64,000 bases of DNA, taken from contig NZ_FNQJ01000022.1 of NCBI RefSeq assembly GCF_900107605.1, forward strand, positions 1 through 64,000, read 5' to 3'. This DNA is from Acidovorax soli (GTDB lineage: Bacteria; Pseudomonadota; Gammaproteobacteria; Burkholderiales; Burkholderiaceae_C). Below the pieces are notes generated by a model. The model saw nothing but the letters and a program-made list of their open reading frames with translations. It ran no database searches and was not told the origin of the DNA. Shown here piece by piece: positions 19,976-33,767 of the stretch (its first letter is position 1; every line of letters starts with the position of its first letter). The translations under genes and the position numbers were made by a program.

Positions 19976-20506
19976 CTACCCCTTCCTCAGCAGCTGGATC
20001 AGTCGTGTCAGTGCATGCCGTGCCGTGGCCGTACGCACGGCGGCGCGGTGGCCCGGAAAGTGCCGCAGCTCGCTGTATATCTGTCCATCCACGCCCCAGG
20101 CCAGCCACACGGTGCCCACGGGCTTCTCGGCGCTGCCGCCCGTGGGCCCGGCCACGCCGGTCACGGCGACGCTGACCTGCGCGCGCGAATGCGCCACGGC
20201 GCCCTCGGCCATGGCGCGTGCCACGGGTTCGCTCACGGCGCCATGCGCTTCGATCAGCGCGGCGGGCACGCCCAGCATCTCGGTCTTGGCAGCGTTGGAA
20301 TAGGTGACGAAACCGCGTTCAAACCACTGGCTGGAGCCCGCCAGGTCGGTGCAGGCGGCGGCGATCATGCCGCCGGTGCAGCTCTCGGCGGTGGCCAGCA
20401 TCCAGCCGCGCGCCAGCAGCTGGGCGGAAATTTGAGTCAAAGTAGCCTCTGGCGCTTGTGCATCAGGCGCTGGCAGCGCATCTGTGGATCGTGATGACGG
20501 GCTCAC
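19976..20506 (-). CDS. pncC: Nicotinamide-nucleotide amidohydrolase PncC (CinA C-terminal family)
   Basis: A 176-residue enzyme that deamidates nicotinamide mononucleotide to nicotinate mononucleotide for NAD salvage. The family segments LATAESCTGGMIAAACTDLA, FVTYSNAAKTEMLGV and VAVTGVAGPTGGSAEKPVGT are all present. I place the start at GTG 20506: it overlaps the pgpA stop as GTGA and has GGAGG eight bases upstream. An in-frame GTG at 20521 is less well placed. An N-terminal stretch before residue 25 is encoded by a copy of the dispersed palindrome. Translational coupling to pgpA is clear. Confidence 0.92.
   Translation of the reverse strand: MSPSSRSTDALPAPDAQAPEATLTQISAQLLARGWMLATAESCTGGMIAAACTDLAGSSQWFERGFVTYSNAAKTEMLGVPAALIEAHGAVSEPVARAMAEGAVAHSRAQVSVAVTGVAGPTGGSAEKPVGTVWLAWGVDGQIYSELRHFPGHRAAVRTATARHALTRLIQLLRKG
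20431..20477. repeat. Dispersed imperfect palindrome, copy 3, inside pncC
   Basis: TTTGAGTCAAAGTAGCCTCT continues GGCGCTTGTGCATCAGGCGC and TGGCAGC. The arms GGCGCTTG and CAGGCGCTGG are typical of the set. It encodes the variable N-terminus of PncC (around PAPDAQAPEATLTQIS) without breaking the frame. Confidence 0.6.
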
Positions 20507-21093
20507 CAGAAGAACCTCCACAGCGCGATCACCAGCAGGGTGCAGAACGCCGCCACGAAGTCGTCGAACAGGATGCCCCAGCCGCCGCGCCAGCCGAAGC
20601 CCTTGAACAGCTGGTCGGCCCAGCCCACGGGCCCGGGCTTGGCGGCATCAAAGTAGCGGAACAGGGCAAACGCCACGGCCTGGCCCCAGAAACCCATGGG
20701 CATGGCCAGCCACAGCACCAGCCAGAAGGCCACGACCTCGTCCCAGACGATGCTGCCGGGATCGGACACGCCCATGTGCCGCGCCGTGACGGTGCAGGCC
20801 CACCAGCCGACCAGCGTGCCCGCGCCGATCAGCAGGCCGATCTGCTGCGTGCCCAGCCAGTGCTGCAGGACCAGAAAGGCCAGCCAGGCCCACAGGGTGC
20901 CCACGGTGCCCGGCGCCTTGGGGCTCAGGCCAGCGCCAAAGCCCAGCGCAATGCAGTGCGCCGGGTGCTGCAGCATGAAAGTGGCGCTGGGCCGCCGTGG
21001 CGGCGGTGGCGTGCCGGGGGGGCGCGGCGTGGCATCGGTCACGTCGACCGGGTCAACCGGATCGCGCGGGGCGCCAGGGGGGGAGGGAATCAC
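20503..21093 (-). CDS. pgpA: Phosphatidylglycerophosphatase A
   Basis: An inner-membrane phosphatase that converts phosphatidylglycerol phosphate to phosphatidylglycerol. The core starts FMLQHPAHCIALGFGAGLSP and holds APGTVGTLWAW, DPGSIVWDEVVAF and the C-terminal helix FDDFVAAFCTLLVIALWRFF, with three to four membrane helices. The start is uncertain. I use GTG at 21093, giving a 196-residue protein with a Pro-rich N-terminal tail; ATG at 20976 would give 157 residues. pncC overlaps its end. thiL, the usual upstream neighbour, lies 11.7 kb away behind the phaC block. Confidence 0.9.
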   Translation of the reverse strand: MIPSPPGAPRDPVDPVDVTDATPRPPGTPPPPRRPSATFMLQHPAHCIALGFGAGLSPKAPGTVGTLWAWLAFLVLQHWLGTQQIGLLIGAGTLVGWWACTVTARHMGVSDPGSIVWDEVVAFWLVLWLAMPMGFWGQAVAFALFRYFDAAKPGPVGWADQLFKGFGWRGGWGILFDDFVAAFCTLLVIALWRFFW

Positions 21094-21185
21094 GCGGGGG
21101 CTCCGGGGCGTTGCATCAGGGGTGAGAATGCTAGCAGCCTGCCCCGCAGTCGCCTGTCTGCACGACTGCAGCGCCAGGAGCGTTC

Positions 21186-21656
21186 TCAGGCGGATGGGGC
21201 AGGCGCGGCCTCGGGCAGGCGCACCAGCAGCACCGGCACGGGGGAGGTGCGGGCGATCTGCTCGGCATCGCTGCCCAGGAACATGCGCGCCAGGCCGCGC
21301 CGTCCCTGGGTGCCCAGCACGATCAGGCGGGCGTCCCATTGCCGGGCCTCGTCGATCACCAGCGTGGCCACCTGGGCGTCCATGGCTTCCAGCAACCGGG
21401 TCTCGGCCTGGATGCCTTGCGCGGTGAGCTGCTCGCAGGCCTTGCGCAGCATGGTGTCAGCACCCTTCAGGGCCACGGGCAGGAAGTCGGTGCGATACAC
21501 CTCGGGGCGCACGAAGCCAACCGCATGCGTCAGCGGATCGATGATGTGCAGCAGGCGCACCTGCGCACCCACCTTCAGCGCCAGGCCGGCGGCTTCTTTC
21601 AGCGCTTGTTCCGAGGTGGGGCTGCCGTCGAAGGGGACCAGGATTTTTTCGTACAT
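21186..21656 (-). CDS. Universal stress protein, UspA family
   Basis: A 156-residue UspA-type protein starting MYEKILVPFDGSPTSEQALK. The ATP-binding G-2x-G-9x-G(S/T) pattern is present as GTQGRRGLARMFLGSDAEQI near residues 115-134. Usp proteins of this type are often induced by low oxygen, stationary phase or starvation. It is the last gene of the phaC-to-usp series, 32 bp after ackA. The ATG at 21656 is the family start. Confidence 0.92.
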   Translation of the reverse strand: MYEKILVPFDGSPTSEQALKEAAGLALKVGAQVRLLHIIDPLTHAVGFVRPEVYRTDFLPVALKGADTMLRKACEQLTAQGIQAETRLLEAMDAQVATLVIDEARQWDARLIVLGTQGRRGLARMFLGSDAEQIARTSPVPVLLVRLPEAAPAPSA

Positions 21657-21688
21657 GGAGAACTCTTTGTAAAAGTGGAAGGGTGAAC

Positions 21689-22879
21689 TCAGTGGCCTGG
21701 CACGCTGACCAGCGCGAGGGCGCGCCAGGCGGCAATCCACTCTTCGTTGGTGGGCTCCACCGCCACGGGCACGTGGCTGGCGGCGTGGGAGATGAGGGGG
21801 GCGTTGCGTGCATTGGCATCGCCGTCGAGTGCCACGCCCAGGAAGGCCAGGTCGCGGCAAATGCGCTCGCGGATGGCGGCGTTGTGCTCGCCAATGCCGG
21901 CGGTGAAGACCAGCATGTCCAGCCCGCCCAGCACGGCGACCATGGCGCCGATCTCGCGCACGATGCGCCGCACATACAGCGCCAGCGCGGCCTGCACGCG
22001 TGCGTTGCCCGCCTCCTGCCGCAGCAGCACGCGCGGGTCGGACGACACGCCCGACAGGCCCAGCAGGCCCGACCCGTGGTACAGCACATGGCCCACCTGT
22101 TCGAGCGTGAGCTTTTCGATCTCCATCAGGTACAGCACCGCGCCGGGATCGAGCGCGCCGCAGCGCGTGCCCATCATCAGCCCGTCGAGCGCCGAAAACC
22201 CCATGGTGGTGGCCATGCTGCGCAGGCCCTGCATGGCGCACAGGCTGGCACCGCTGCCCAGGTGGGCCACGATGGTGCGCCCGCGTGCGGCATCGCCATG
22301 GCGCTCGGCCAGCGCGACCGACATGAATTCATACGACAGGCCGTGAAAGCCGTAGCGGCGCAGGCCGCGTTCCCAGGCGCCGTAGGGCAGGGGCAGCATT
22401 TTTTCGACATCGGGCAGCGTGTGGTGGAACGCCGTGTCAAAGCAGGCCACCTGGGGCAGGCCGGGTGCCGTGGAAAGCAGCGCCTCGATGGCTTCGAGCG
22501 CAAACGGCTGGTGCAGTGGCGCCAGCGGGATGTAGGTTTGCAGGTCGGCCAGCACGGCGGCGTCCACGCGCACCGGGTCGAAGTACTTGGCGCCGCCGTG
22601 CACCACGCGGTGCGCCACGGCGGCGATGCGGTGGCCGCCCAGCCGGGCCAGCACGCGGGCGCGGATGTGCTCCAGTGCCGCGTGGTAGGGCTGGGCGGCG
22701 TCCAGCGCTATCGGGCCGGGCGCGCTGCCCGTCTCGCCAAAGGTGGGTGCGGGGCCGGTGATGCCATCGACCTTGCCGTTCCACAGGGGCTTGCGTGGCA
22801 GTGGGCGGGTGCTGGCATCGAACAGCGCGAATTTGATGCTCGACGAGCCGCAGTTGAGCACCAGGATGAGGTCGCTCAT
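21689..22879 (-). CDS. ackA: Acetate (or propionate) kinase
   Basis: A 396-residue ASKHA-fold kinase making ATP from acyl phosphate and ADP, or the reverse. Seen in order: VLNCGSSSIKFALFD at the N-terminus (phosphate 1 loop), PLAPLHQPFALEAIE, FDTAFHHTLPDV, YGFHGLSYEFMS, IVAHLGSGASLCAM and FTAGIGEHNAAIRE. It overlaps the upstream phosphotransacetylase gene by four bases (ATGA), so the two consecutive enzymes of the pathway are translationally coupled. Acetate versus propionate or butyrate preference cannot be read from sequence. Confidence 0.95.
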   Translation of the reverse strand: MSDLILVLNCGSSSIKFALFDASTRPLPRKPLWNGKVDGITGPAPTFGETGSAPGPIALDAAQPYHAALEHIRARVLARLGGHRIAAVAHRVVHGGAKYFDPVRVDAAVLADLQTYIPLAPLHQPFALEAIEALLSTAPGLPQVACFDTAFHHTLPDVEKMLPLPYGAWERGLRRYGFHGLSYEFMSVALAERHGDAARGRTIVAHLGSGASLCAMQGLRSMATTMGFSALDGLMMGTRCGALDPGAVLYLMEIEKLTLEQVGHVLYHGSGLLGLSGVSSDPRVLLRQEAGNARVQAALALYVRRIVREIGAMVAVLGGLDMLVFTAGIGEHNAAIRERICRDLAFLGVALDGDANARNAPLISHAASHVPVAVEPTNEEWIAAWRALALVSVPGH

Positions 22880-24321
22880 GGCGGCAGCACCTTGTAGCGG
22901 TGCGCCAGCAGCACGGCCACGGCGCACGAGGCGATGCGGGTTTCGCGCGAGTCGGCGCGGCTGGTGAGCACGATGGGCACGCGCGCGCCCAGCACGATGC
23001 CGGCGCTGGCCGCGCTGCCCATGAATTCGAGCTGCTTGGCCAGCATGTTGCCGCTTTCCAGGTCGGGCACCACCAGAATGTCGGCCCGGCCCGCCACCTC
23101 GGAGACGATGCCCTTGGTGTGCGCGGCCGCCATCGACACGGCATTGTCGAAGGCCAGCGGCCCGTCGAGCAGGGCGCCGGTGATCTGGCCGCGATCGGCC
23201 ATCTTGCACAGGGCCGCCGCATCCAGCGTGGCGGGCATGTGCGGGTTGACGGTTTCCACCGCCGCCAGGACGGCCACGCGCGGCTCGGCCACGCCGATGG
23301 CATGGGCCAGGTCGATGGCGTTGCGCACGATGTCGGCCTTGTCGTCCAGCGTGGGCGCGATGTTGATGGCGGCGTCGGTGATGATGAAGGGGCGCGGGTA
23401 GGCCGGTGTCTGCATCAGGTAGCAGTGGCTGATGCGCCGCTTGGTGCGCAGGCCGGTGCCGCTGGCCACCACGGCAGCCATGAGCTCGTCGGTGTGCAGG
23501 CTGCCTTTCATGAGGGCCTCCACACGCCCTTTCGCCACCAGCTCCACCGCGCGTGCGGCGGCCGCATGGCTGTGGGGCACGTCTTCGATGGCGATGCCGG
23601 CAATGTCCAGCCCGCTCTCTTGCGCCACCGCCAGGATGCGCGCGCGCGGGCCAATGAGCACGGGCGTGATCAGCCCGGCCGCGCGCGCATCCAGCGCACC
23701 CGAAAGGCTGAGCGCGTCGCAGGGGTGCACCACCGCCATGGGGCTTGCGCCCAGCGGGCGCACATGGTCCAGCAGCCGGTGCAGGCCGTCGCCGTTGACG
23801 GTCAGGCGCACCTCGGGCAGCGTGGTGCGCGCGCGTTCGATGCGCTCGGTGGGGGCGATCACATCGGCTTCGCCGCTGATCACGGCCACGCCGTCCTGGT
23901 TGGTGCAGCTGCAGGCAAGCTTCAGGCGTTTCTTGGCCTCGTCGCGTGCGGTTACCGTCACGCCCACGCGCAGGGTGTCACCCACGCGCACGGGGGCGAG
24001 AAATTGGAGCGTCTGCCCCAGGTAGATGGTGCCGGGGCCGGGCAGGCGCGTGCCCAGCACCGCCGAAATCAGGGCGCCGCCCAGCATGCCGTGGGCAATG
24101 ACGCCCTGAAAGCGCGTGGAGGCGGCGTATTCCGCATCCAGGTGCTGCGGGTTCACGTCGCCCGAGAGCACCGCGAACAGCTGGATGTCTTCGGTGCAGA
24201 GCGTGCGCTCGAACGATGCGGTGTCGCCCACCGCGATCTCGTCGAAGGTGCGGTTGCGCACGGTGCCCAGGTCGTTGCCGGCAGCGATCGCGGGGGGGAG
24301 AGCGGGCAGGGTGTCTGGCAT
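22876..24321 (-). CDS. Bifunctional MaoC-type enoyl-CoA hydratase / phosphate acyltransferase
   Basis: A 481-residue fusion. Residues about 20-150 form a MaoC hot-dog hydratase with the catalytic FAVLSGDVNPQHLDAEYA and FQGVIAHGMLGGALIS motifs (Asp and His dyad). Residues about 180-480 form a Pta/Ptb-type transferase that swaps CoA for phosphate on acyl groups (EALMKGSLHTDELM, FIITDAAINIAPTLDDKADI, ALLDGPLAFDNAVS). The protein can therefore hydrate an enoyl-CoA and turn an acyl-CoA into an acyl phosphate for the coupled kinase AckA. (R)-specific hydration by MaoC domains also supplies PHA synthase monomers, which fits phaC in the same cluster. Confidence 0.92.
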   Translation of the reverse strand: MPDTLPALPPAIAAGNDLGTVRNRTFDEIAVGDTASFERTLCTEDIQLFAVLSGDVNPQHLDAEYAASTRFQGVIAHGMLGGALISAVLGTRLPGPGTIYLGQTLQFLAPVRVGDTLRVGVTVTARDEAKKRLKLACSCTNQDGVAVISGEADVIAPTERIERARTTLPEVRLTVNGDGLHRLLDHVRPLGASPMAVVHPCDALSLSGALDARAAGLITPVLIGPRARILAVAQESGLDIAGIAIEDVPHSHAAAARAVELVAKGRVEALMKGSLHTDELMAAVVASGTGLRTKRRISHCYLMQTPAYPRPFIITDAAINIAPTLDDKADIVRNAIDLAHAIGVAEPRVAVLAAVETVNPHMPATLDAAALCKMADRGQITGALLDGPLAFDNAVSMAAAHTKGIVSEVAGRADILVVPDLESGNMLAKQLEFMGSAASAGIVLGARVPIVLTSRADSRETRIASCAVAVLLAHRYKVLPP

Positions 24322-24350
24322 GGGACTCCGAAGGATGGGAAAGATGGAGA

Positions 24351-25481
24351 TCAGGCCATCTGGCTGATGGTCTTGCGAAAACGCGCCAGAGAGGCGGTGA
24401 ACAGCACAGCGCCAATGGCCAGTATGGCCAGCCATTGTGGCCAGACCATGTCGAGGCCCGCACCCCGGTACAGGATGGCCTGCGCGGCCGCCACGAAATG
24501 CGTGGTGGGCGCGGCCAGCATCACGTATTGCACCAGCTCCGGCATGCTTTCGCGCGGGGTCACGCCGCCCGACAGCATTTGCAGCGGCAGCAGGGTCAGC
24601 ACCAGCAGCATGCCGAACTGCGGCATGGAGCGGGCCACGGTGGCCAGGAAGATGCCCATGGAGGTGGTGGCAAACAGGTGCAGCGCCGCCAGCCCCATGA
24701 ACAGCGGCACCGAGCCCTGCACCGGCACCTGGAGGGCGCCCTGCACCACGAACACCAGCGCCACCAATGCCGCCAGCAGCACCACCAGCCCCATGGACCA
24801 GACCTTGGCCAGCATGATCTCGCCGGGCGTCACGGGCATGACCAACAGATGCTCGATGGTGCCGTGCTCGCGCTCGCGGATCAGCGCCGCGCCGGTCAGG
24901 ATGATGGACAGCATGGTGACGTTGTTGATGATCTCCATCAGCGAGCCGAACCAGGCCTGCTCCAGGTTGGGATTGAAGCGCATGCGCACGTTCAGCTCGA
25001 CCGGCAGCTGCGCATCGCCGCGGTGGCGCTGCACGAATTCGCCCACCTCACCCGCCACGATCTGCTGGATATAGCCGCTGCCGGTGAAGGCCTGGCTCAT
25101 GCGCGTGGCATCCACATTGAGCTGCACCACAGGGGCCAGCCCGGCCAGCACCTCGCGCTGAAAATTGGGCGGAATGTCGAGCACAAAGGTGTAATTGCCG
25201 TTGTCCATGCCGGCATCCATCTCGGCCAGCGTGATCAGGCGCGGGGTGGTGAAGTACGGCGGGTAGAAGCTGGCCACGATGCGCGCCGACAGCGGTGAAT
25301 CGTCTTCGTCCACGATGGCGATGGCCGCCTTGTGCAGGCTCTCGGGCATGGCCGTGGCGGCCACGTAGATCGACACGGTGAAGGTGTAGGCGATCAGCAC
25401 CAGCATCATGGGGTCGCGCACCAGGCTCCACAGTTCCTTGATGCCCAGGCGCCAGATGTTGGCAAGGGATGCGGCGTGCAT
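24351..25481 (-). CDS. ABC-2 type permease, YhhJ family
   Basis: A 376-residue inner-membrane permease. One N-terminal helix (about 20-45) is followed by a large periplasmic domain (to about 175) and five C-terminal helices, the ABC2_membrane_3 layout. INNVTMLSIILTGAALIRER followed by EHGTIEHLLVMPVTP is the family signature. It pairs with RbbA immediately upstream (2-bp gap), as YhhJ does in E. coli. Substrates of these exporters are not established. Confidence 0.9.
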   Translation of the reverse strand: MHAASLANIWRLGIKELWSLVRDPMMLVLIAYTFTVSIYVAATAMPESLHKAAIAIVDEDDSPLSARIVASFYPPYFTTPRLITLAEMDAGMDNGNYTFVLDIPPNFQREVLAGLAPVVQLNVDATRMSQAFTGSGYIQQIVAGEVGEFVQRHRGDAQLPVELNVRMRFNPNLEQAWFGSLMEIINNVTMLSIILTGAALIREREHGTIEHLLVMPVTPGEIMLAKVWSMGLVVLLAALVALVFVVQGALQVPVQGSVPLFMGLAALHLFATTSMGIFLATVARSMPQFGMLLVLTLLPLQMLSGGVTPRESMPELVQYVMLAAPTTHFVAAAQAILYRGAGLDMVWPQWLAILAIGAVLFTASLARFRKTISQMA

Positions 25482-25483
25482 GC

Positions 25484-28240
25484 TCAGGCCTCCTGCTTGC
25501 GCAGCAGCAGTATCGCCGCGCTGACGATCACCGGCGCCGCGATCAGCAAGGGCCAGAACGACGGCAGCAGGCTGCCCAGGTCCAGTGCCTTGCTGAAAAC
25601 GCCCCGGCTGATGGTCAGGAAATGCGTGGCCGGGAAAATGCGGCCCACGAAGGCGCCCACGCCTTCGAGCGAGGACACCGGGTTGATCAGCCCCGCGTAC
25701 TGGATGGACGGAATCAGCGTGCCGATCATGGTGACGAACATCGCCGAAATCTGGCTGCGCGTGAAGGTGGAGGCCAGCAGGCCAATGCCCGTGGAAGACA
25801 CCACGAACACCAGCGCCGCCAGCGCCAGGGTGGCAAAGCTGCCCTTGAGCGGCACGTCAAACACCGTGACGGCCATCGCGGTCATGAGCAGGAAGTTGAA
25901 CATGGCCAGCACGATGTAGGGCAGCTGCTTGCCCAGCAGGAACTCGGCCCGCGTGACGGGCGTGACGTAGAGGTTGATGATGGAGCCCAGCTCTTTTTCG
26001 CGCACCACCGACAGCGCCGTGAGCATGGCCGGTATCAGCATCAGCAGCAGCGGAATCACGGCCGGCACCATGGCTGGCAGGCTCTTCACGTCGGGGTTGT
26101 AGCGAAAACGGGTCTCGACCGTGCTGGCCGTCGCCGGCCGCACGCCCAGCCGGTGCCGCGCCTGGTCGGCCAGCCACATCTGGTGCATGGCGCCGATGTA
26201 GCCGCGCACGGTTTCCGCACGCATGGGCATGGCGCCGTCCACCCAGGCGGCCACCTGCACCGGGCGCCCATGCTGCAGGTCGCGCGCAAAGCCGGGCGGG
26301 ATCTCGATGACCAGCGCCAGCTCGCCGCTGCGCATGCGCTGGTCCAGCTCGGCGTGGCTGCGCACGGGCGGCTTTTCGATGAAGTAGCGCGAGCCCGCGA
26401 GGTTGAGGGTGTAGTTCTGGCTCAGCGTGGTCTGGTCCTGGTCGAGCACGGCGTAGCTGAGGTCTTCCACGTCCATGCTGATGCCGTAGCCGATGATGAA
26501 CATCAGCAGGGCGGTGCCGAGCAGCGCCAGCGTGGCGCGCACCGGGTCGCGCCGCAGCTCCAGCGTCTCGCGCCACATGTAGCTCAGGGCGCGGCCCAGG
26601 TTGAAGAAGTCCCGGCGGCGCGGCGTGGCGGAGGGCGCGCTGTGCGGTGCGGGTTCGGTGGCGGCGGGTGCGGGCGTGCTTGGGGCGGGCGCGGCCCGCC
26701 GGGTGCCCGAGGCATCTTCCAGGTAGGCAATGAAGGCCTGCTCCAGCGAGCCCGCGCCGCGCTGCGCGGCAATGTCTGCCGGCGGCGCGCTGACCAGCAC
26801 CTTGCCGGCATGCATGAGCGAGATGCGGTCGCAGCGTTCGGCCTCGTTCATGAAGTGGGTGGAGATGAAGATCGTCACACGGTCGCGCCGCGACAGTTCG
26901 ATCAGCAGGCGCCAGAAATTGTCGCGCGCCACCGGGTCCACGCCCGAGGTGGGTTCGTCCAGGATCAGCAGCTCGGGCTGGTGCACCATGGCCACGGCCA
27001 GCGACAGGCGCTGGCGCAGGCCCAGGGGCAGGGCATCGGGCAGGCTGTCGATTTCGTCGTGCAGGCCAAAGCGCTCGACCATGGCCTGCACGCGAGCCTG
27101 CACCTGCGCCTCGGGCACATGGAACAGGCGCGCGTGCAGCACCAGGTTCTGCCGCACGGTCTGCTCGCCATACAGCGAAAACGCCTGCGACATGTAGCCC
27201 ACGCGGCGGCGGGTTTCGATGTCGCGGGGGTCCACCTTCTGGCCGAACAGCCAGGCCTCGCCCTCGCTGGCCGGCAGCAGCCCGGTCAGCATCTTCATGG
27301 TGGTGGACTTGCCGCAGCCGTTGGAGCCCAGAAAGCCAAAAATCTCGCCACGGCGGATGCGGAAATCCACCTGGTCCACGGCCACGAAGTCGCCAAAGCG
27401 CATGGTCAGGCCCTGCGCCTCGATGGCCACCTGCGTGTTGTCGTCCAGTGCCAGCGGCGTGATCTCCACCGGCTGGTGGCCGCGTTTCTTTTCCTCGGGC
27501 AGCAGCGCGATGAAGGCGGCTTCGAGGTTGCGGGTGCCGGTGCGTTGCAGCAGCGCGTGGGGCGTGCCGGTGGCCAGCACCTGGCCGTCGTCCATGGCCA
27601 CCAGCCAGTCAAAGCGCTGGGCTTCATCCATGTAGGCGGTGGCCACGACCACGCTCATCTGCGGGCGCTCTTGCCGGATGCTGGCGATCAGGTCCCAGAA
27701 CTGGGCGCGTGCCAGCGGGTCCACGCCAGTGGTGGGCTCGTCCAGGATCAGCAGGTCGGGGTCGTGGATCAGCGCGCAGCACAGGCCGAGCTTTTGCTTC
27801 ATGCCGCCCGAGAGCTTGCCGGCCGGGCGCGCCAGAAAGGGGTGCAGGCCGGTGCTGTGCGTCAGGTGGTCGATGCGCCGGCGCCGCTCGGCCGCGTCGT
27901 GGCCGAACAGGCGGGCGAAGAACTGCAGGTTTTCCTCGACCGAGAGCGTGGGGTACAGGTTTTTCCCCAGGCCCTGGGGCATGTAGGCGATGCGCGGGCA
28001 GACCGCATCGCGGTGCCGTTTGCTGCGCATGTCACCGTCCAGCACCTGCAGGCTGCCCTGCTGCAGCGCCCGCGCACCCGCCAGCAAGGCCAGCAGGCTG
28101 GACTTGCCCACGCCGTCCGGGCCGATGAGCCCGACCATGCGCTGGGCCGGCAGCTCCAGCTGTATGTCCGCCAGTGCCACGGTGGTGGCATAGCGCAGGC
28201 CCACACCGTCCAGACGGGCCACGCAGGGTAAAGCGGCCAC
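25484..28240 (-). CDS. rbbA: RbbA-type ABC transporter: two ATPase domains fused to a permease
   Basis: A 918-residue protein close in length to E. coli RbbA. The first ATPase domain has Walker [10 protein letters not shown] (40-48), signature [11 protein letters not shown] and [12 protein letters not shown]. The second has Walker [10 protein letters not shown] (about 305) and [13 protein letters not shown], but its signature reads [11 protein letters not shown] instead of LSGG. The C-terminal 380 residues form an ABC-2 permease with a periplasmic domain. A Pro/Ala-rich linker lies near residues 520-540. E. coli RbbA was reported as a ribosome-bound ATPase, yet the neighbouring HlyD, outer-membrane and YhhJ genes point to an exporter here. 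Confidence 0.93.
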
Positions 28241-28243
28241 GCC

Positions 28244-29317
28244 TTACTCCGGCAGCTTCACGGCCAGGTGGGCCGGCCACGGGGCCGCCGCATCGAGCTT
28301 GAGCCAGGCCATGCCGGGCAGGCCGGTCTTGACCAGCTGGGCATGCTTTTGCAGCAACTCGGGGGCGATCTGCGCCTTGACGCGGAACATCATCTTTTGC
28401 CGTTCGCTGGCGGTTTCCACCGTTTTGGGGGTGAATTGCGCGGTGCTGGCCACGAACGAAACCTTGGCCGGAATCACCAGCTGCGGCGCCGCATCGAGCA
28501 CGATGCGCACCTCGCTGCCCAGGGCCAGCCTGCCGGCCACGGGTTCGGGCAGGAAGAAGGTCATGTAGACATCGGACAGGTCCACCAGATTCAGCACCTT
28601 GCCGCCACCGCCGATCACCTCTCCCGGCTGGGCAATGCGGTATTGCACGCGGCCGCTGCGGGGCGCCACGAGCGCGCTGTCGTCAATGTCGGCCTTGATG
28701 CGTGCCACGGATGCTTCGGCGGCCGTCACGGCGGCGCGCGCGCTGGCCACCTGGGTGCGTGCGGCGGTGATGGCGGCCTGCGCGGCGTCGGCCTGGGCCT
28801 TGGCCGCCACCACGGCGGCCTGCAGGCTGCGTTCGCGGGCGCGGTCGTCGTCCACTTCCTGGTCGGACGATGCGCCTTCGCGCACCAGCGTCTGCGAGCG
28901 GGCCAGACGCCGCTGCGCGGCCTCCAGCTCGCTCTGGCGTTGCGCCACCAGGGCCTGCACGGCCTGCCGGTCGCTTTCGCGCACTGCGACCTGGGCCTGG
29001 GCGCTGGCCACGGCGGCAACGGCCTGCTGGTGCCGTGCCTGGGCTTCGTCGCGCGAGGCTTCCAGCGTGCTGATCTGCATGTGGGCCAGGGTCTGGCCGG
29101 CGGTGACGAATTCGCCCTCTTTCACCACAATGCTCTGCACGCGGCCGCCCAGCTTGGCCGCCACGTCGATCTCGGTGGCTTCAATGCGGCCATTGCCGCT
29201 GACAAATCCGTCGCCGGGGCCCTGGGGGCGCAGCATGGACCAGGCGTAGGCGCCGCCGGCCAATACGGCGGCTGCAATGGCCAGGAGGATGAGCCGGTTC
29301 TTGAGGGTGGGGTTCAT
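28244..29317 (-). CDS. HlyD-family periplasmic adaptor (YhiI-like)
   Basis: A 357-residue membrane fusion protein. One N-terminal membrane anchor (about 9-29) is followed by the first half of the biotinyl-lipoyl domain (ATEIDVAAKLGGRVQSIVVKEG). A long Ala/Gln-rich coiled-coil hairpin (about 75-215) comes next, then the second half (SGRVQYRIAQPGEV) and beta-barrel domains. It connects the RbbA/YhhJ inner-membrane pump to the outer-membrane channel encoded directly upstream. Gaps are 3 bp to rbbA and 19 bp to the channel gene. Confidence 0.93.
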   Translation of the reverse strand: MNPTLKNRLILLAIAAAVLAGGAYAWSMLRPQGPGDGFVSGNGRIEATEIDVAAKLGGRVQSIVVKEGEFVTAGQTLAHMQISTLEASRDEAQARHQQAVAAVASAQAQVAVRESDRQAVQALVAQRQSELEAAQRRLARSQTLVREGASSDQEVDDDRARERSLQAAVVAAKAQADAAQAAITAARTQVASARAAVTAAEASVARIKADIDDSALVAPRSGRVQYRIAQPGEVIGGGGKVLNLVDLSDVYMTFFLPEPVAGRLALGSEVRIVLDAAPQLVIPAKVSFVASTAQFTPKTVETASERQKMMFRVKAQIAPELLQKHAQLVKTGLPGMAWLKLDAAAPWPAHLAVKLPE

Positions 29318-29336
29318 GGTGCTTTAACGAGGGGGC

Positions 29337-30800
29337 TCAGGGAACGGAGCCTGTGGGTGGCGTGGCCGTGGCCGGCGCGGCCAGCGCGCCACCGCCCAGC
29401 GCCGCATACAGGCCGACCTGGCTGGACAGGACGGCGCGGCGCATCTGCACCACCTGCTGCTCGGCAACCAGCAGGTCGCGTTGGGCATCGAGCACCTCCA
29501 GAAAGGCGGCGGCGCCATGGTCATAGCGCAACTGGGACAGGCGCGCGCGCTCGCTCTGGGCGGCCCGCGCATCCTGGGCAATGGCCAGCTGGCGGGCCAG
29601 TGCCTGGCGCGCCACCAGCGCGTCGGACACATCGCGGAAGGCGCCCTGCACGGTTTTTTCGTAGTTGGCCACGGCGATGTCGCGGCGCACCTCGGCCAGG
29701 TTCAGGTTGTTGCGCAGGCGCCCGCCGTTGAAGAGGGGCAGCGAAATGCTGGGCGAAAACGTCCAGGCCTGGCTGCCGCTGTCGAACAGGCCACCGAGCT
29801 CGGCGCTGGCGGTGCCCAACGAACCCGTGAGCGCCACGCGCGGGAAAAACGCCGCGCGCGCCGCGCCGATCTGCGCCTGGGCTGCGCGCAGCTGGTGCTC
29901 GGCCGCCATGATGTCGGGGCGCTGGGCGAGCAGGTCGGAGGGCAGGCCCGCGCGCAGTGGCGGCATCGACAGGCTGTCCAGCCGCACGGCTACGGCGGGC
30001 GGTGCCACGGGCGCACCCACCAGCAGCGCCAGGGCGTTGGCCTGCTGCGCGCGCGCCTGCTCCAGCTGGGCGCCCAGCGCCTGGGCCTGCGTGAGCAGTG
30101 TTTGCACCTGGGTCAGGTTCAGCCGCGAGGCCGAGCCCACATCCACGCGGCGCTGGAAGATGCGCAGGCTTTCCTGGCGGCTGGCGATGGCCTGGTGCGC
30201 CAGTTCCAGGCGCTCGTCGAGTTCCCGCAGTGCCAGTTCGCTCTGGGCGACCTGCGCGATCAGGCCCAGGGTGACGGCGTGGCGGGCCGCATCGGTGGCC
30301 AGGTAGTTTTGCAGTGCCGCATCGTTCAGGCTGCGCACCCGCCCCCAGAAGTCGATTTCCCAGCTGGCCAGGCCCAGGCCCGCCTGGTACTGGCTGCTCA
30401 GGAGGGGCTGGCCCGTCAGGTTCAGGTCGGCCGGCACGCGCGAGCGGTCCATGCCCGCCTGGGCGCCGAGGGTGGGCAGCAGATCGGCGCGCTGGATGCC
30501 ATGGGCGGCGCGGGCCTCCTGCACGCGCAGCGCGGTGGCGCGCAGGTCGCGGTTGTTCGCCAGTGCCTGGGCCATCAGGGTTTGCAGGCGCGGGTCGGTG
30601 AAATAGTCGCGCCAGCCGGTGGTGGCGGCCGGGGTGCCCTCGTCTGGCGCGGGCAGGGCGTAATGCGCGGGCACCGGCAGGGCGGGCGTCTCATGGGGCG
30701 GCGCCATCGAGGCGCAGCCGGCTAGCGCCCCGATGGCGGCTGCCAGGGTGACGGCGCGCCGTGCAGTTGGATGACTGGTGTGGTGCGGGTGGCGATCCAT
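29337..30800 (-). CDS. Outer-membrane efflux lipoprotein, NodT/OprM family
   Basis: A 487-residue TolC-type channel subunit. The signal peptide ends in the lipobox LAGC (Cys near residue 29), so the mature protein is lipid-anchored. Two outer-membrane factor repeats follow, with typical QARLNLTQVQTLLTQAQAL-like helices and the family phrases DIMAAEHQLRAAQAQIGAAR and FFPRVALTGSLG. It would form the trimeric exit duct for the HlyD/RbbA/YhhJ pump. The ATG at 30800 is 2 bp past the phaC stop, implying translational coupling. Confidence 0.93.
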   Translation of the reverse strand: MDRHPHHTSHPTARRAVTLAAAIGALAGCASMAPPHETPALPVPAHYALPAPDEGTPAATTGWRDYFTDPRLQTLMAQALANNRDLRATALRVQEARAAHGIQRADLLPTLGAQAGMDRSRVPADLNLTGQPLLSSQYQAGLGLASWEIDFWGRVRSLNDAALQNYLATDAARHAVTLGLIAQVAQSELALRELDERLELAHQAIASRQESLRIFQRRVDVGSASRLNLTQVQTLLTQAQALGAQLEQARAQQANALALLVGAPVAPPAVAVRLDSLSMPPLRAGLPSDLLAQRPDIMAAEHQLRAAQAQIGAARAAFFPRVALTGSLGTASAELGGLFDSGSQAWTFSPSISLPLFNGGRLRNNLNLAEVRRDIAVANYEKTVQGAFRDVSDALVARQALARQLAIAQDARAAQSERARLSQLRYDHGAAAFLEVLDAQRDLLVAEQQVVQMRRAVLSSQVGLYAALGGGALAAPATATPPTGSVP

Positions 30801-30802
30801 GG

Positions 30803-32548
30803 CTATTTCTGCAGCACATAGGTGCCCGGAGCGTCGCCGACGGGCTTGTAGGCGCCCGACCCTGTGCGTGGGGGCTTGACCGGTGCGCCCGAGCGCGCCT
30901 TCAGCCACGCCAGCCAGGCCGGCCACCAGGAGTCGGGTGTTTCCGGTGCAGCGGCCAGCCACGCGTCGGGCGGCAGGTAGTTGCCGCCCGCCGGGCGGGT
31001 CAGCATCTGGAAATGCCGGCGCGGGTTGCCGGGCGGGCTGACGATGCCTGCATTGTGGCCGCCACTGGTGAGCACGAAGGTGGTTTCGGCGGAGCTCAGC
31101 TGTTGCAGCTTGAAGACCGAACGCCAGGGCGCCACATGGTCGGTGACGGTGCCGACCATGAAGGTGGGCAAGGTGATGTCGCCCAGGGTCACGGGCTTGC
31201 CGCCCACCGGGTAGCGGCCTTCGCTGAGGTCGTCGTCGAGGAACAGCCGGCGCAGGTACTGCGAGTGCATGGTGGCCGGCATGCGGGTGGTGTCGGCGTT
31301 CCAGGCCATCAGGTCGTTCATGGGGGCCCGCTCTCCCAGCAGGTATTCGTTGACCAGGCGCGACCACAGCAGGTCGTAGGAGCGCAGCATCTGGAACGCG
31401 CCGGCCATCTGGGCCCCGGTGAGGTAGCCGGTCTGGGCCATTTGCGCTTCCAGCAGGCTGATCTGGCTGTTATCGATGAACAGGGCCAGTTCGCCCGGCT
31501 CGGTGAAGTCGGTCTGCGCCGCGAAGAGCGTCATGGAGGCCAGGCGCTCGTCCCCGTCGCGCGCCATGGCGGCGGCCGCAATCGCCAGCAGCGTGCCCCC
31601 CAGGCAGTAGCCGGCGGCGTGCACCTTGGCCTGGGGCACGATGGTGTTGACGGCGTTCAGTGCGGCGTGAAAGCCCTGGTCCAGGTAATCGTCCATGCCC
31701 AGATCACGGTCCTCGGCGCCTGGGTTGATCCAGGAAATACAGAACACCGTGTGCCCCTGGTCCACCAGATATTTGATGAGCGAGTTGTGGGGCGACAGGT
31801 CGAGGATGTAGTACTTCATGATCCACGCCGGCACGATCAGGATCGGCTCGGGGTGCACGGCTGGGGTGGTGGGCGTGTACTGGATCAGCTCCATCACGCG
31901 GTTCTTCAGCACCACCTTGCCGGGCGTGATGCCCACGTCGCGGCCGACCACGAAGTTCTCGGCGCCAGCGGGTGGTGCGCCTGCAGCGTGGCGCCGGGCG
32001 TCCTCCAGCAGATGGAGCGCGCCACGCGCCAGGTTGGCGCCGCCTTGCGCGAGCGTGCGGTTCAGCACCACGGGATTGGTGGCCAGCTGATTGCCGGGCG
32101 AGAAAATGTCCAGGAACTGCCGGGCTGCGAAGGCCACCATGTCTTCGTGGTGCTTGTCCACACCCCAGACGCCGTGCGTTGCGGCGGCCCACCATTGCTC
32201 GGTGAGCACAAAAGACTGGTGCATGAGGTTGAACGGCCACTGCTGCCACGCGGGGTCGGCAAAGCGCCGGTCCTGGGCAGGGGTCGCCACGGCATGGCGG
32301 GCTTCCCTGTCGGGGCCGGCCGCCATCCGCGCCTGGGCATAGGCGGCCATCTCCTGCCCCTGGCGCAGCGCCAGGTGCGCCAGGTCCATGCACTTGCCTG
32401 GCGAGGCGGCCAGATGCAGGGCCCAGTCACTGCCCGCCATCAGGGCGGAGGCGTGGGACAGCGACGCAACGCTGCGGGCCAGTGCCGCATGGATGGCGGG
32501 GTCGAGCCGCTCGGCCATGAACAGGGGGGCATTGGCAGGGGGTGGCAT
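30803..32548 (-). CDS. phaC: Class I poly(3-hydroxyalkanoate) synthase
   Basis: A 581-residue alpha/beta hydrolase that polymerises (R)-3-hydroxyacyl-CoA into PHA granules. The lipase-like box is GYCLGG with the catalytic Cys near 315; the catalytic Asp lies in GTVTDHVAPW and the His in SGGHNAGIV. The N-terminal region includes FNLMHQSFVLTEQWW. I use the ATG at 32548, which has GGAGA eight bases upstream, rather than an in-frame TTG 30 bases earlier. It heads the phaC-to-usp cluster behind an FNR-like site. No phaA, phaB or phasin gene is near. Confidence 0.95.
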   Translation of the reverse strand: MPPPANAPLFMAERLDPAIHAALARSVASLSHASALMAGSDWALHLAASPGKCMDLAHLALRQGQEMAAYAQARMAAGPDREARHAVATPAQDRRFADPAWQQWPFNLMHQSFVLTEQWWAAATHGVWGVDKHHEDMVAFAARQFLDIFSPGNQLATNPVVLNRTLAQGGANLARGALHLLEDARRHAAGAPPAGAENFVVGRDVGITPGKVVLKNRVMELIQYTPTTPAVHPEPILIVPAWIMKYYILDLSPHNSLIKYLVDQGHTVFCISWINPGAEDRDLGMDDYLDQGFHAALNAVNTIVPQAKVHAAGYCLGGTLLAIAAAAMARDGDERLASMTLFAAQTDFTEPGELALFIDNSQISLLEAQMAQTGYLTGAQMAGAFQMLRSYDLLWSRLVNEYLLGERAPMNDLMAWNADTTRMPATMHSQYLRRLFLDDDLSEGRYPVGGKPVTLGDITLPTFMVGTVTDHVAPWRSVFKLQQLSSAETTFVLTSGGHNAGIVSPPGNPRRHFQMLTRPAGGNYLPPDAWLAAAPETPDSWWPAWLAWLKARSGAPVKPPRTGSGAYKPVGDAPGTYVLQK

Positions 32549-32590
32549 GTCGGGAGTCTCCGGTGAAGAGCGGGCCAAGGGTGCTGGGAT

Positions 32591-32631
32591 ACTTTACGAA
32601 GTGGCGGCGCGCGTGAATTGACATGTGTCAA
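32591..32631 (-). promoter_or_regulatory. FNR/ANR-like site and -10 box of the phaC operon
   Basis: The dyad TTGAC-ACAT-GTCAA (32631-32618, extended to AATTGAC-N4-GTCAATT) resembles the FNR/ANR consensus TTGAT-N4-ATCAA with one symmetric change. On the minus strand the hexamer TAAAGT (32596-32591) follows. With a start near 32583 the dyad centre falls at about -41.5, the class II position for FNR-type activators. The leader would be about 35 nt with a GGAGA ribosome site. Other regulators that bind TGACA-N2-TGTCA dyads are possible. Confidence 0.62.
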
Positions 32632-32786
32632 TTTGTGGCGGATTGCCGACGGGACGGCCGCTGTCGGCGCACCAGCATAGGCAGGGACCAAGACACAACG
32701 ATGTCCCCTGCCGAGCGTGCTGTTGCGCGAGGCCCTGCGGCGCGGGTGTAGGGGGTGGGTGCCGGGATGTGAATCCGGCCGCGAAT

Positions 32787-33767
32787 TCAGCCGGTCGCGA
32801 AGTGATCGAATGAGGCGTAGCGCCGTGCGACCGGCTGCCCTTGCGCATCCACCAGCCGCAGGCCCGGCGCGGCCTCGATGCGACCGATGCGCGTGACGGG
32901 CGTGTCGCTGGCCAGGGCTGCGGAGGCCACCGCAGCGCGCCGGGCCTGCGGGGCGGTGAACGCCAGTTCGTAGTCGTCGCCGCCCGCCAGCGTGCACTGG
33001 CGAATCAGTTCAGGGCCAAATTGGCAGATGGGGCGTGATGGAGAGTCGCTGGCAGCTATTAGATTGGAAGTGATGTGGGTGTCGAGGCACGCCCCGACAC
33101 CCGACGCTTTCAGGATGTGCGACAGGTCGCCCAGCAGCCCGTCGCTCACATCCAGGGCACTGCTGGCCACGCCGCGCAGGGCCTGGCCCAGGGCCACGCG
33201 GGGCGTGGGCTGCTCCAGCCGCAGGCGGCCGGCGGCCAGCACCTCGGGTGGCAGGGTGATATGCCCCTGCAGCGCCTCCAGCGCCAGGCGGGCGTCGCCC
33301 AGCGTGCCGCTCACATAGATGTCGTCGCCGGGCCGTGCGCCGCTGCGCAGCAGGGCCTGGCCGGCTGGCACTTCGCCGAACACGGTGATGCAGATATTGA
33401 GCGGGCCCTGCGTGGTGTCGCCACCCACCAGCTCGCAACCCTGCGCATCGGCCAGCGCCAGCAACCCGCTGGAGAAACCTGCCAGCCAGGCCTCATCCAC
33501 GCGGGGCAGCGCCAGCGCCAGCGTGAAAGCCAGCGGGCGCGCGCCGCAGGCCGCCAGGTCCGACAGGTTCACGGCCAGCGCCTTGTGGCCCAGGCGTTCG
33601 GGGGCTACGTCGGCAAAGAAATGCCGGCCCTCCACCAGCATGTCGCTGGACACGGCCAGCTGCATGCCCGGTGCGGGCGCCAGCAGCGCGCAGTCGTCGC
33701 CCACGCCGAGCGCGGCGCGGTGCACGGGCCGCGTGAAATAGCGTGCGATCAGGTCGAATTCACCCAT
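32787..33767 (-). CDS. thiL: Thiamine-monophosphate kinase
   Basis: A 326-residue enzyme that phosphorylates thiamine phosphate to thiamine diphosphate. The N-terminus MGEFDLIARYF, the Mg/ATP site GVGDDCALL, SSDMLVEGRHF, and later ALDVSDGLLGDLSHIL and LAGGDDYELAF are the family motifs. The residues near 231-251 (around NLIAASDSPSRP) are encoded by a degenerate copy of the dispersed palindrome. CACAAT lies 8 nt before the ATG, a possible -10 of a leaderless transcript. In related bacteria thiL is normally directly followed by pgpA and pncC. Confidence 0.95.
   Translation of the reverse strand: MGEFDLIARYFTRPVHRAALGVGDDCALLAPAPGMQLAVSSDMLVEGRHFFADVAPERLGHKALAVNLSDLAACGARPLAFTLALALPRVDEAWLAGFSSGLLALADAQGCELVGGDTTQGPLNICITVFGEVPAGQALLRSGARPGDDIYVSGTLGDARLALEALQGHITLPPEVLAAGRLRLEQPTPRVALGQALRGVASSALDVSDGLLGDLSHILKASGVGACLDTHITSNLIAASDSPSRPICQFGPELIRQCTLAGGDDYELAFTAPQARRAAVASAALASDTPVTRIGRIEAAPGLRLVDAQGQPVARRYASFDHFATG
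33014..33074. repeat. Dispersed imperfect palindrome, copy 6 (degenerate), inside thiL
   Basis: CCAAATTGGCAGATGGGGCG continues TGATGGAGAGTCGCTGGCAG and CTATTAGATTGGAAGTGATG. The right half (GTCGCTGGCAGCTATTAGATT) matches the family best. The left arm is eroded. It is in frame within ThiL. Confidence 0.42.

Follow-up and report, generated by a model that had tools for sequence, protein, structure and literature searches.

FNR control of additional PHA synthase genes has been described in Herbaspirillum seropedicae, where, in the parts of the two reports drawn on here, Fnr1 directly controls the dksA-phaC2-fabI operon (PMC5934665) and the phaC2 and phaC3 transcripts are 100- and 60-fold lower without Fnr (PMC5862806). 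In Accumulibacter, according to the portion of the study used here, FNR motifs precede phaC and pta and the phaC transcript was unchanged after oxygen exposure (PMC6446978); this lack of change despite the FNR motifs counts against an FNR reading of the kind developed below. A low-oxygen response table for Burkholderia cenocepacia H111 includes a PHA synthase with a value of 6.2, as given in the part of the article covered (PMC3759415). Clusters of group D1, with phaC/phaJ-pta/ackA genes, were described in Burkholderia sensu lato, and a similar pta-ack operon of Sinorhizobium was placed under PhoB control, again in the sections of the source drawn on (PMC8231600). A 2011 paper on RbbA and its membrane partner has been retracted (notice PMC12169533). 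No description of an FNR- or TetR-controlled phaC-RbbA operon was found in the titles and abstract openings of openly licensed literature, which makes for weak evidence of novelty. As FNR control of an extra phaC and phaC/phaJ-pta/ackA clusters are both published, the core of the present finding is known; the less known part is the recurrent pump, the divergent tetR and its palindrome.

The stretch of DNA analysed here, 64,000 nt in full and referred to as the window, carries between thiL and pgpA (20503–33767) a run of eight minus-strand genes with internal gaps of −4 to 32 bases. The run begins with phaC (30803–32548), a PHA synthase gene whose product scores below the class I cut-off, which is compatible with clade D membership, and has Cys, Asp and His residues, presumably catalytic, with counterparts in the aligned sequence of a solved PHA synthase. 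It continues with genes for an OEP outer-membrane efflux channel (29337–30800; NodT-type model over cut-off), an HlyD-type periplasmic adaptor (28244–29317), an RbbA-type protein (25484–28240), a YhhJ-like ABC-2 permease (24351–25481), a MaoC hydratase fused to a phosphate acetyl/butyryltransferase (MaoC-Pta; 22876–24321), an acetate/propionate family kinase (AckA; 21689–22879) and, as the final gene, a universal stress protein (Usp; 21186–21656), all on the minus strand. The RbbA-type protein has the make-up expected of such an exporter, a pair of ABC ATPase domains joined to an ABC-2 membrane domain, and a score of 1590 bits against a cut-off of 1050 (NF033858). The Pta part clears the cut-off for phosphate acetyltransferase; its matches to butyryltransferase models fall short of theirs. 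The initial annotation, made from the sequence alone, listed neither the MaoC hydratase domain fused to Pta nor the closing Usp gene; it had also pointed to a locus of Burkholderia cenocepacia (lxa), reportedly activated by low oxygen and encoding similar enzymes. The run resembles, in our view, the engineered kinase-phosphotransacylase-PHA synthase (BPEC) pathway, a likeness for which the literature search gave no support. Upstream, the same-strand neighbour thiL (32787–33767, minus strand) is separated from phaC by 238 bases and is treated as flank, outside the operon; downstream, pgpA starts ~90 bases past usp.

Upstream of phaC, AATTGACATGTGTCAATT (32616–32633, minus strand) forms a perfect 18-bp palindrome, whose core TTGACATGTGTCAA (32618–32631) is the sole exact TTGAC-N4-GTCAA in the 64,000-nt window and which we assign, on its letters and conservation, as an FNR/ANR-type dyad, AATTGACA-TG-TGTCAATT. 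The perfect inverted repeat reported by the initial annotation is thus present, with arms of 8 bp and not the 7 bp given there. A −10 box, TAAAGT (32591–32596, minus strand), follows the dyad core by 21 bp and is common to loci L125 and L126 and to the same-genus genomes G487, G532 and G501. With a start predicted at 32584 or 32583, the dyad centre falls at −40.5 or −41.5, both compatible with class II activation and in agreement with the value of about −41.5 first derived from the TAAAGT box. The remaining features of class II promoters are also found: a TTGAT-N4-ATCAA-like dyad, here with C/G at the fifth position, located near −41.5 and ~22 bp before the −10 box (gap 21 here, relative to the predicted start), and no good −35 hexamer, those at spacings of 15–19 bp from the −10 box being poor. 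A consensus scan of the minus strand from 21000 to 33000 gave no sigma-70 promoter, and terminator-like sites over the same interval numbered 5 versus a shuffle mean of 4.7. The phaC start is the ATG at 32548, with GGAG ahead of it and a predicted leader of ~35 nt, in line with the length noted earlier.

A 242-residue FNR, which scores over the Fnr cut-off and combines four cysteines with an E-SR helix (CxxCx5C plus further cysteines; E-TVSR), is encoded in the genome near hemN and the oxidase genes. An FNR relative was detected in 58 of 60 genomes searched. A second Crp/Fnr regulator (L203, 4967–5617), which has an E-TFSR recognition helix and a Crp-type HTH and lacks the N-terminal cysteine cluster, has genes for a porin and a GGDEF protein as its neighbours.

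Conservation of the dyad was assessed in 110 phaC loci, 80 from named organisms and 30 from further genomes of the family, the window's own (L124) included, over up to 450 bases before the aligned start and 60 past it (shorter in five loci). Exact TTGAY-N4-RTCAA occurs upstream in 43/110 loci versus 0 for the reversed motif, and in 59 versus 1 when one mismatch is allowed; after merging of similar upstream regions, the exact dyad is present in 32/87 clusters, again versus 0 reversed. Among 60 palindromes built from same-letter half-sites, the FNR one ranks first (32 clusters), followed by two overlapping versions of it (14 and 11), with 1 or 0 for the others. The position of a −10-like TAnnnT relative to the dyad is also constrained, with an offset of 22 bp in 15, 21 bp in 4 and 23 bp in 3 of the 43 loci (22/43 in sum, or 13 of the 32 merged clusters), versus no more than two loci at each other offset from 10 to 39; the gap of 21 in the window compares with a commonest value of 22. 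Alignment of six orthologous promoters gave 16 invariant columns out of 199, which include every one of the eight TTGA/TCAA positions and four positions of the −10 box. As a control, the exact dyad was found in 0/20 upstream regions of distant phaC paralogues (37–41% identity; regions hand-picked from such matches in 19 genomes), with one mismatch in 3/20. A point against FNR control is that 51 of the 110 loci have no dyad within one mismatch in the stretch scanned. Conservation of both motif and −10 spacing across these loci, well above controls, supports the putative FNR-type control suggested by the initial annotation.

Within the genus, five of 47 genomes besides the window's own carry a phaC of ≥77% identity, among which G487, G532 and G501 show an exact dyad and G495 one with a single mismatch; G480, with a tetR and the channel gene, has no dyad. 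G501 and G532 share the eight genes plus pgpA in the window's order, a PhaC 93% identical and an unchanged TAAAGT box. Compared with the window (TTGACACATGTCAA), both sides of the palindrome have been altered together in their dyads (TTGATACACATCAA and TTGATGCATATCAA), in a symmetrical change from TTGAC...GTCAA to TTGAT...ATCAA. The initial annotation had proposed comparing the upstream regions of related phaC genes and would have counted loss of the dyad against its reading; in G501 and G532 the exact dyad is kept with the same eight-gene order. The MaoC-Pta match of G501 is split over two overlapping frames (L228, 8986–10427), a possible frameshift or sequencing error. The channel and ackA of G487 appear as fused fragments (L227, 11011–12022), and neither MaoC-Pta nor the other pump genes were found there; this may be an assembly fault, the genome being 82% complete in 320 contigs.

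Across the 4.13-Mb genome, TTGAY-N4-RTCAA occurs at 19 sites versus 5 for the reversed motif. The strict form TTGAC-N4-GTCAA was rejected as a genome-wide signal, with 4 sites versus 3 reversed, and the wider TTGAY form was needed; as the strict count is not enriched, context and conservation carry the case for the phaC site. A domain scan of neighbouring genes covered 14 of the 19 TTGAY sites (L032, L033, L038, L041 and L042 were left out) and identified a plausible low-oxygen neighbour at 11 of them: a metal ATPase/usp pair, a COX1-type oxidase (by context, ccoN), hemN beside fnr, a c-type cytochrome, moaA/PilJ, a second usp, a COX3-like gene, cytochrome cd1, a NarX-like kinase, an ODP (flavodiiron-type) protein and phaC itself. 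There was no obvious fit at the remaining three scanned sites (ferredoxin-FAD reductase, FabA-like gene and tetrapyrrole methylase). In L029, L030 and L040 the site lies inside the reading frame as first called, so starts there need care. The phaC dyad and the one before the oxidase gene differ by one inner base.

The initial annotation regarded the pump genes as the unusual part of the run; they are instead recurrent, 24/110 loci having a same-strand channel gene after phaC. Under the filter used, the exact dyad is present in 16 of the 24 pump loci versus 27 of the 86 others (21/24 versus 38/86 with up to one mismatch), and in 17/25 versus 26/85 when the window's own record is reassigned to the pump loci. 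Two loci outside the pump count, L084 and L095, have adaptor, ABC and permease matches of 40–57%, no channel match passing the filter and no dyad, L095 with only 171 bases upstream. Three pump loci (L059, L136 and L085) lack a dyad within one mismatch in the stretch scanned; L059 and L136 have an exact dyad 765 bases upstream, and L085 has none within one mismatch. In L059 (7401–8007), a phasin gene lies between the FNR dyad and phaC. Where the pump precedes phaC, in L047, L048, L049 and L056, the stretch available likewise contains no exact dyad.

A link between FNR and the RbbA pump by itself was considered as a general rule and rejected, since most RbbA pumps elsewhere in the class have no dyad. 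RbbA matches occur in 28/274 genomes, the window's own included, and in the 28 stretches used for this comparison (G465 was left out) exact dyads number 5 versus 2 reversed, or 43 versus 15 with up to one mismatch. An exact dyad within 600 bp before hlyD was found only in L192 among the 28, and a one-mismatch dyad within 200 bp in five (L179, L180, L189, L190 and L198); a weak FNR link of RbbA pumps is possible. In Pollutimonas, an RbbA pump-pta-ackA group lying apart from phaC has its own exact FNR dyad ~240 bp before hlyD (L060, 7041).

A tblastn search with seven queries, a one-sided set in that each came from a pump-bearing locus, placed a closely related divergent tetR ahead of phaC in 13 of the 24 pump loci and in 0 of the 86 others; TetR identity was confirmed by domain in five of the 13. 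As a strict mark of the RbbA-type pump, tetR was rejected, because a profile of the same seven proteins finds a distant divergent tetR in nine of the 86 other loci (L071, L075–L079, L140, L142 and L145; E 1e-7 to 1e-9), with one same-strand match in L084. At least six of these (L071 and L075–L079) combine the distant tetR with a different HlyD-ABC-ABC-2 pump (~30–40% similar) upstream of phaC; L140, L142 and L145 are short stretches. Taken with the 13, these loci indicate that tetR accompanies pumps near phaC, of two unlike kinds, and phaC may have been joined by a tetR-pump pair on more than one occasion.

The tetR loci have a palindrome of their own. Exact ACCGACNNGTCGGT is present in eight of the 13, 21–31 bp upstream of the FNR dyad, and in no other of the 110 loci in the stretch available, the tetR loci without it being L064, L085, L133, L138 and L141. 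These eight copies lie between the divergent tetR and the FNR dyad (L125, 1369; L126, 1363; L129, 1389; L054, 9875; L063, 9806; L073, 9803; L131, 1379; L134, 1370). Copies with one mismatch gave no signal (16 versus 16 reversed, exact ones included), and the evidence is limited to the eight exact copies, all at phaC promoters. Within the genus, tetR and exact ACCGACNNGTCGGT occur together in G532, G501, G495 and G480. There is no tetR beside phaC in the window or G487, and the rest of the window's genome offers at best a match of 27% identity. At 32645–32658 (minus strand), 27 bp upstream of the dyad, the window has GCCGTCCCGTCGGC, a decayed copy of ACCGACNNGTCGGT identified by position and by alignment with tetR-bearing relatives, at the spacing of the intact palindrome in G532 and G501. 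As 38 of 63,987 window positions match ACCGACNNGTCGGT equally well, its identification as a relic rests on position and alignment and not on the letters alone. The simplest reading of these sequences would be that tetR was lost in the window's lineage and that the palindrome decayed.

These results bear on several other explanations of the dyad. It might be read mainly by the second Crp/Fnr regulator and respond to nitric oxide or another signal, not oxygen. ANR and DNR proteins share boxes, the L203 regulator has the recognition helix described above without the cysteine cluster, and a dyad accompanies cytochrome cd1 in this genome; the regulator gene, however, is surrounded by those for a porin and a GGDEF protein and not by denitrification genes, and the oxidase gene near fnr is preceded by an almost identical dyad, TTGACATGCGTCAA. 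Both points weaken this explanation, which we consider unlikely. The divergent tetR of relatives could suggest that a local repressor, for example the TetR of the pump, uses the dyad as its operator, but the palindrome associated with tetR is a different one located further upstream, the FNR dyad is kept in loci without tetR or without the pump, and the window itself has no tetR beside phaC, all of which make a repressor operator highly improbable. A chance match without function would fit the lack of enrichment of TTGAC-N4-GTCAA alone, yet is so hard to reconcile with the conservation, the symmetrical change and the fixed −10 spacing that we give it almost no credence.

The dyad is very probably, as far as the sequence allows, a class II site of the genome's own FNR (ANR type), through which low oxygen would switch on a single eight-gene transcript for PHA, export and acyl-phosphate functions. 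At low oxygen, FNR carrying its iron-sulphur cluster would dimerise and bind around −41, over the missing −35 region, recruiting RNA polymerase at TAAAGT. The transcript would encode the PHA synthase, the channel-HlyD-RbbA-permease exporter, MaoC-Pta, AckA and Usp. A likely role is the storage or discharge of acyl-CoA and reducing power as polymer, to which MaoC-Pta and AckA could contribute by supplying the polymer or by yielding ATP via acyl-phosphate, with the exporter presumably removing a product. In several relatives, the divergent TetR is probably a second, substrate-sensing input; in the window's lineage, in which tetR would have disappeared and its palindrome decayed, FNR would be the only recognisable input. 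We suggest more tentatively that the promoter of phaC and the exporter ancestrally took two inputs, FNR for low oxygen and a TetR that sensed the exporter substrate via ACCGACNNGTCGGT two to three helical turns upstream, and that loss of tetR and decay of the palindrome left oxygen alone in control in the window's lineage; the exporter cargo would be a low-oxygen acyl-CoA product and not a foreign toxin, and tetR-pump pairs, with pumps that are unlike, would have joined phaC on two occasions or more. If true, the RbbA-type pump would be tied to low oxygen and to PHA and acyl-phosphate metabolism, and the divergent TetR would be a candidate sensor of the pump substrate. What the pump carries can be tested directly in natural genome pairs that differ in the presence of tetR.

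As a comparison system for RbbA and its HlyD and permease partners we take yhiI-rbbA-yhhJ of Escherichia coli, which the window resembles in an RbbA equivalog model far over its cut-off and in the adaptor and permease genes that flank it; in contrast, the window's RbbA belongs to one run with phaC and has an outer-membrane channel gene of its own. The dksA-phaC2-fabI order was not found in L118 (Herbaspirillum). The locus is like phaC2/phaC3 of Herbaspirillum seropedicae in that an additional PHA synthase gene would be under FNR at low oxygen, as is directly so for phaC2, but no exporter, MaoC-Pta or AckA is named for the phaC2 operon in the parts of those reports drawn on (PMC5934665, PMC5862806). 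With group D1, as described in the sections used, it shares phaC together with genes for a fused hydratase-phosphate acetyltransferase and acetate kinase; fabI follows ack in that group, whereas usp and pgpA follow ackA here, and that part of the account mentions no exporter, FNR site or TetR (PMC8231600). Set beside these systems, the locus carries an ordinary and well-supported type of switch on an unusual but recurrent operon, a second switch having apparently been lost in this lineage.
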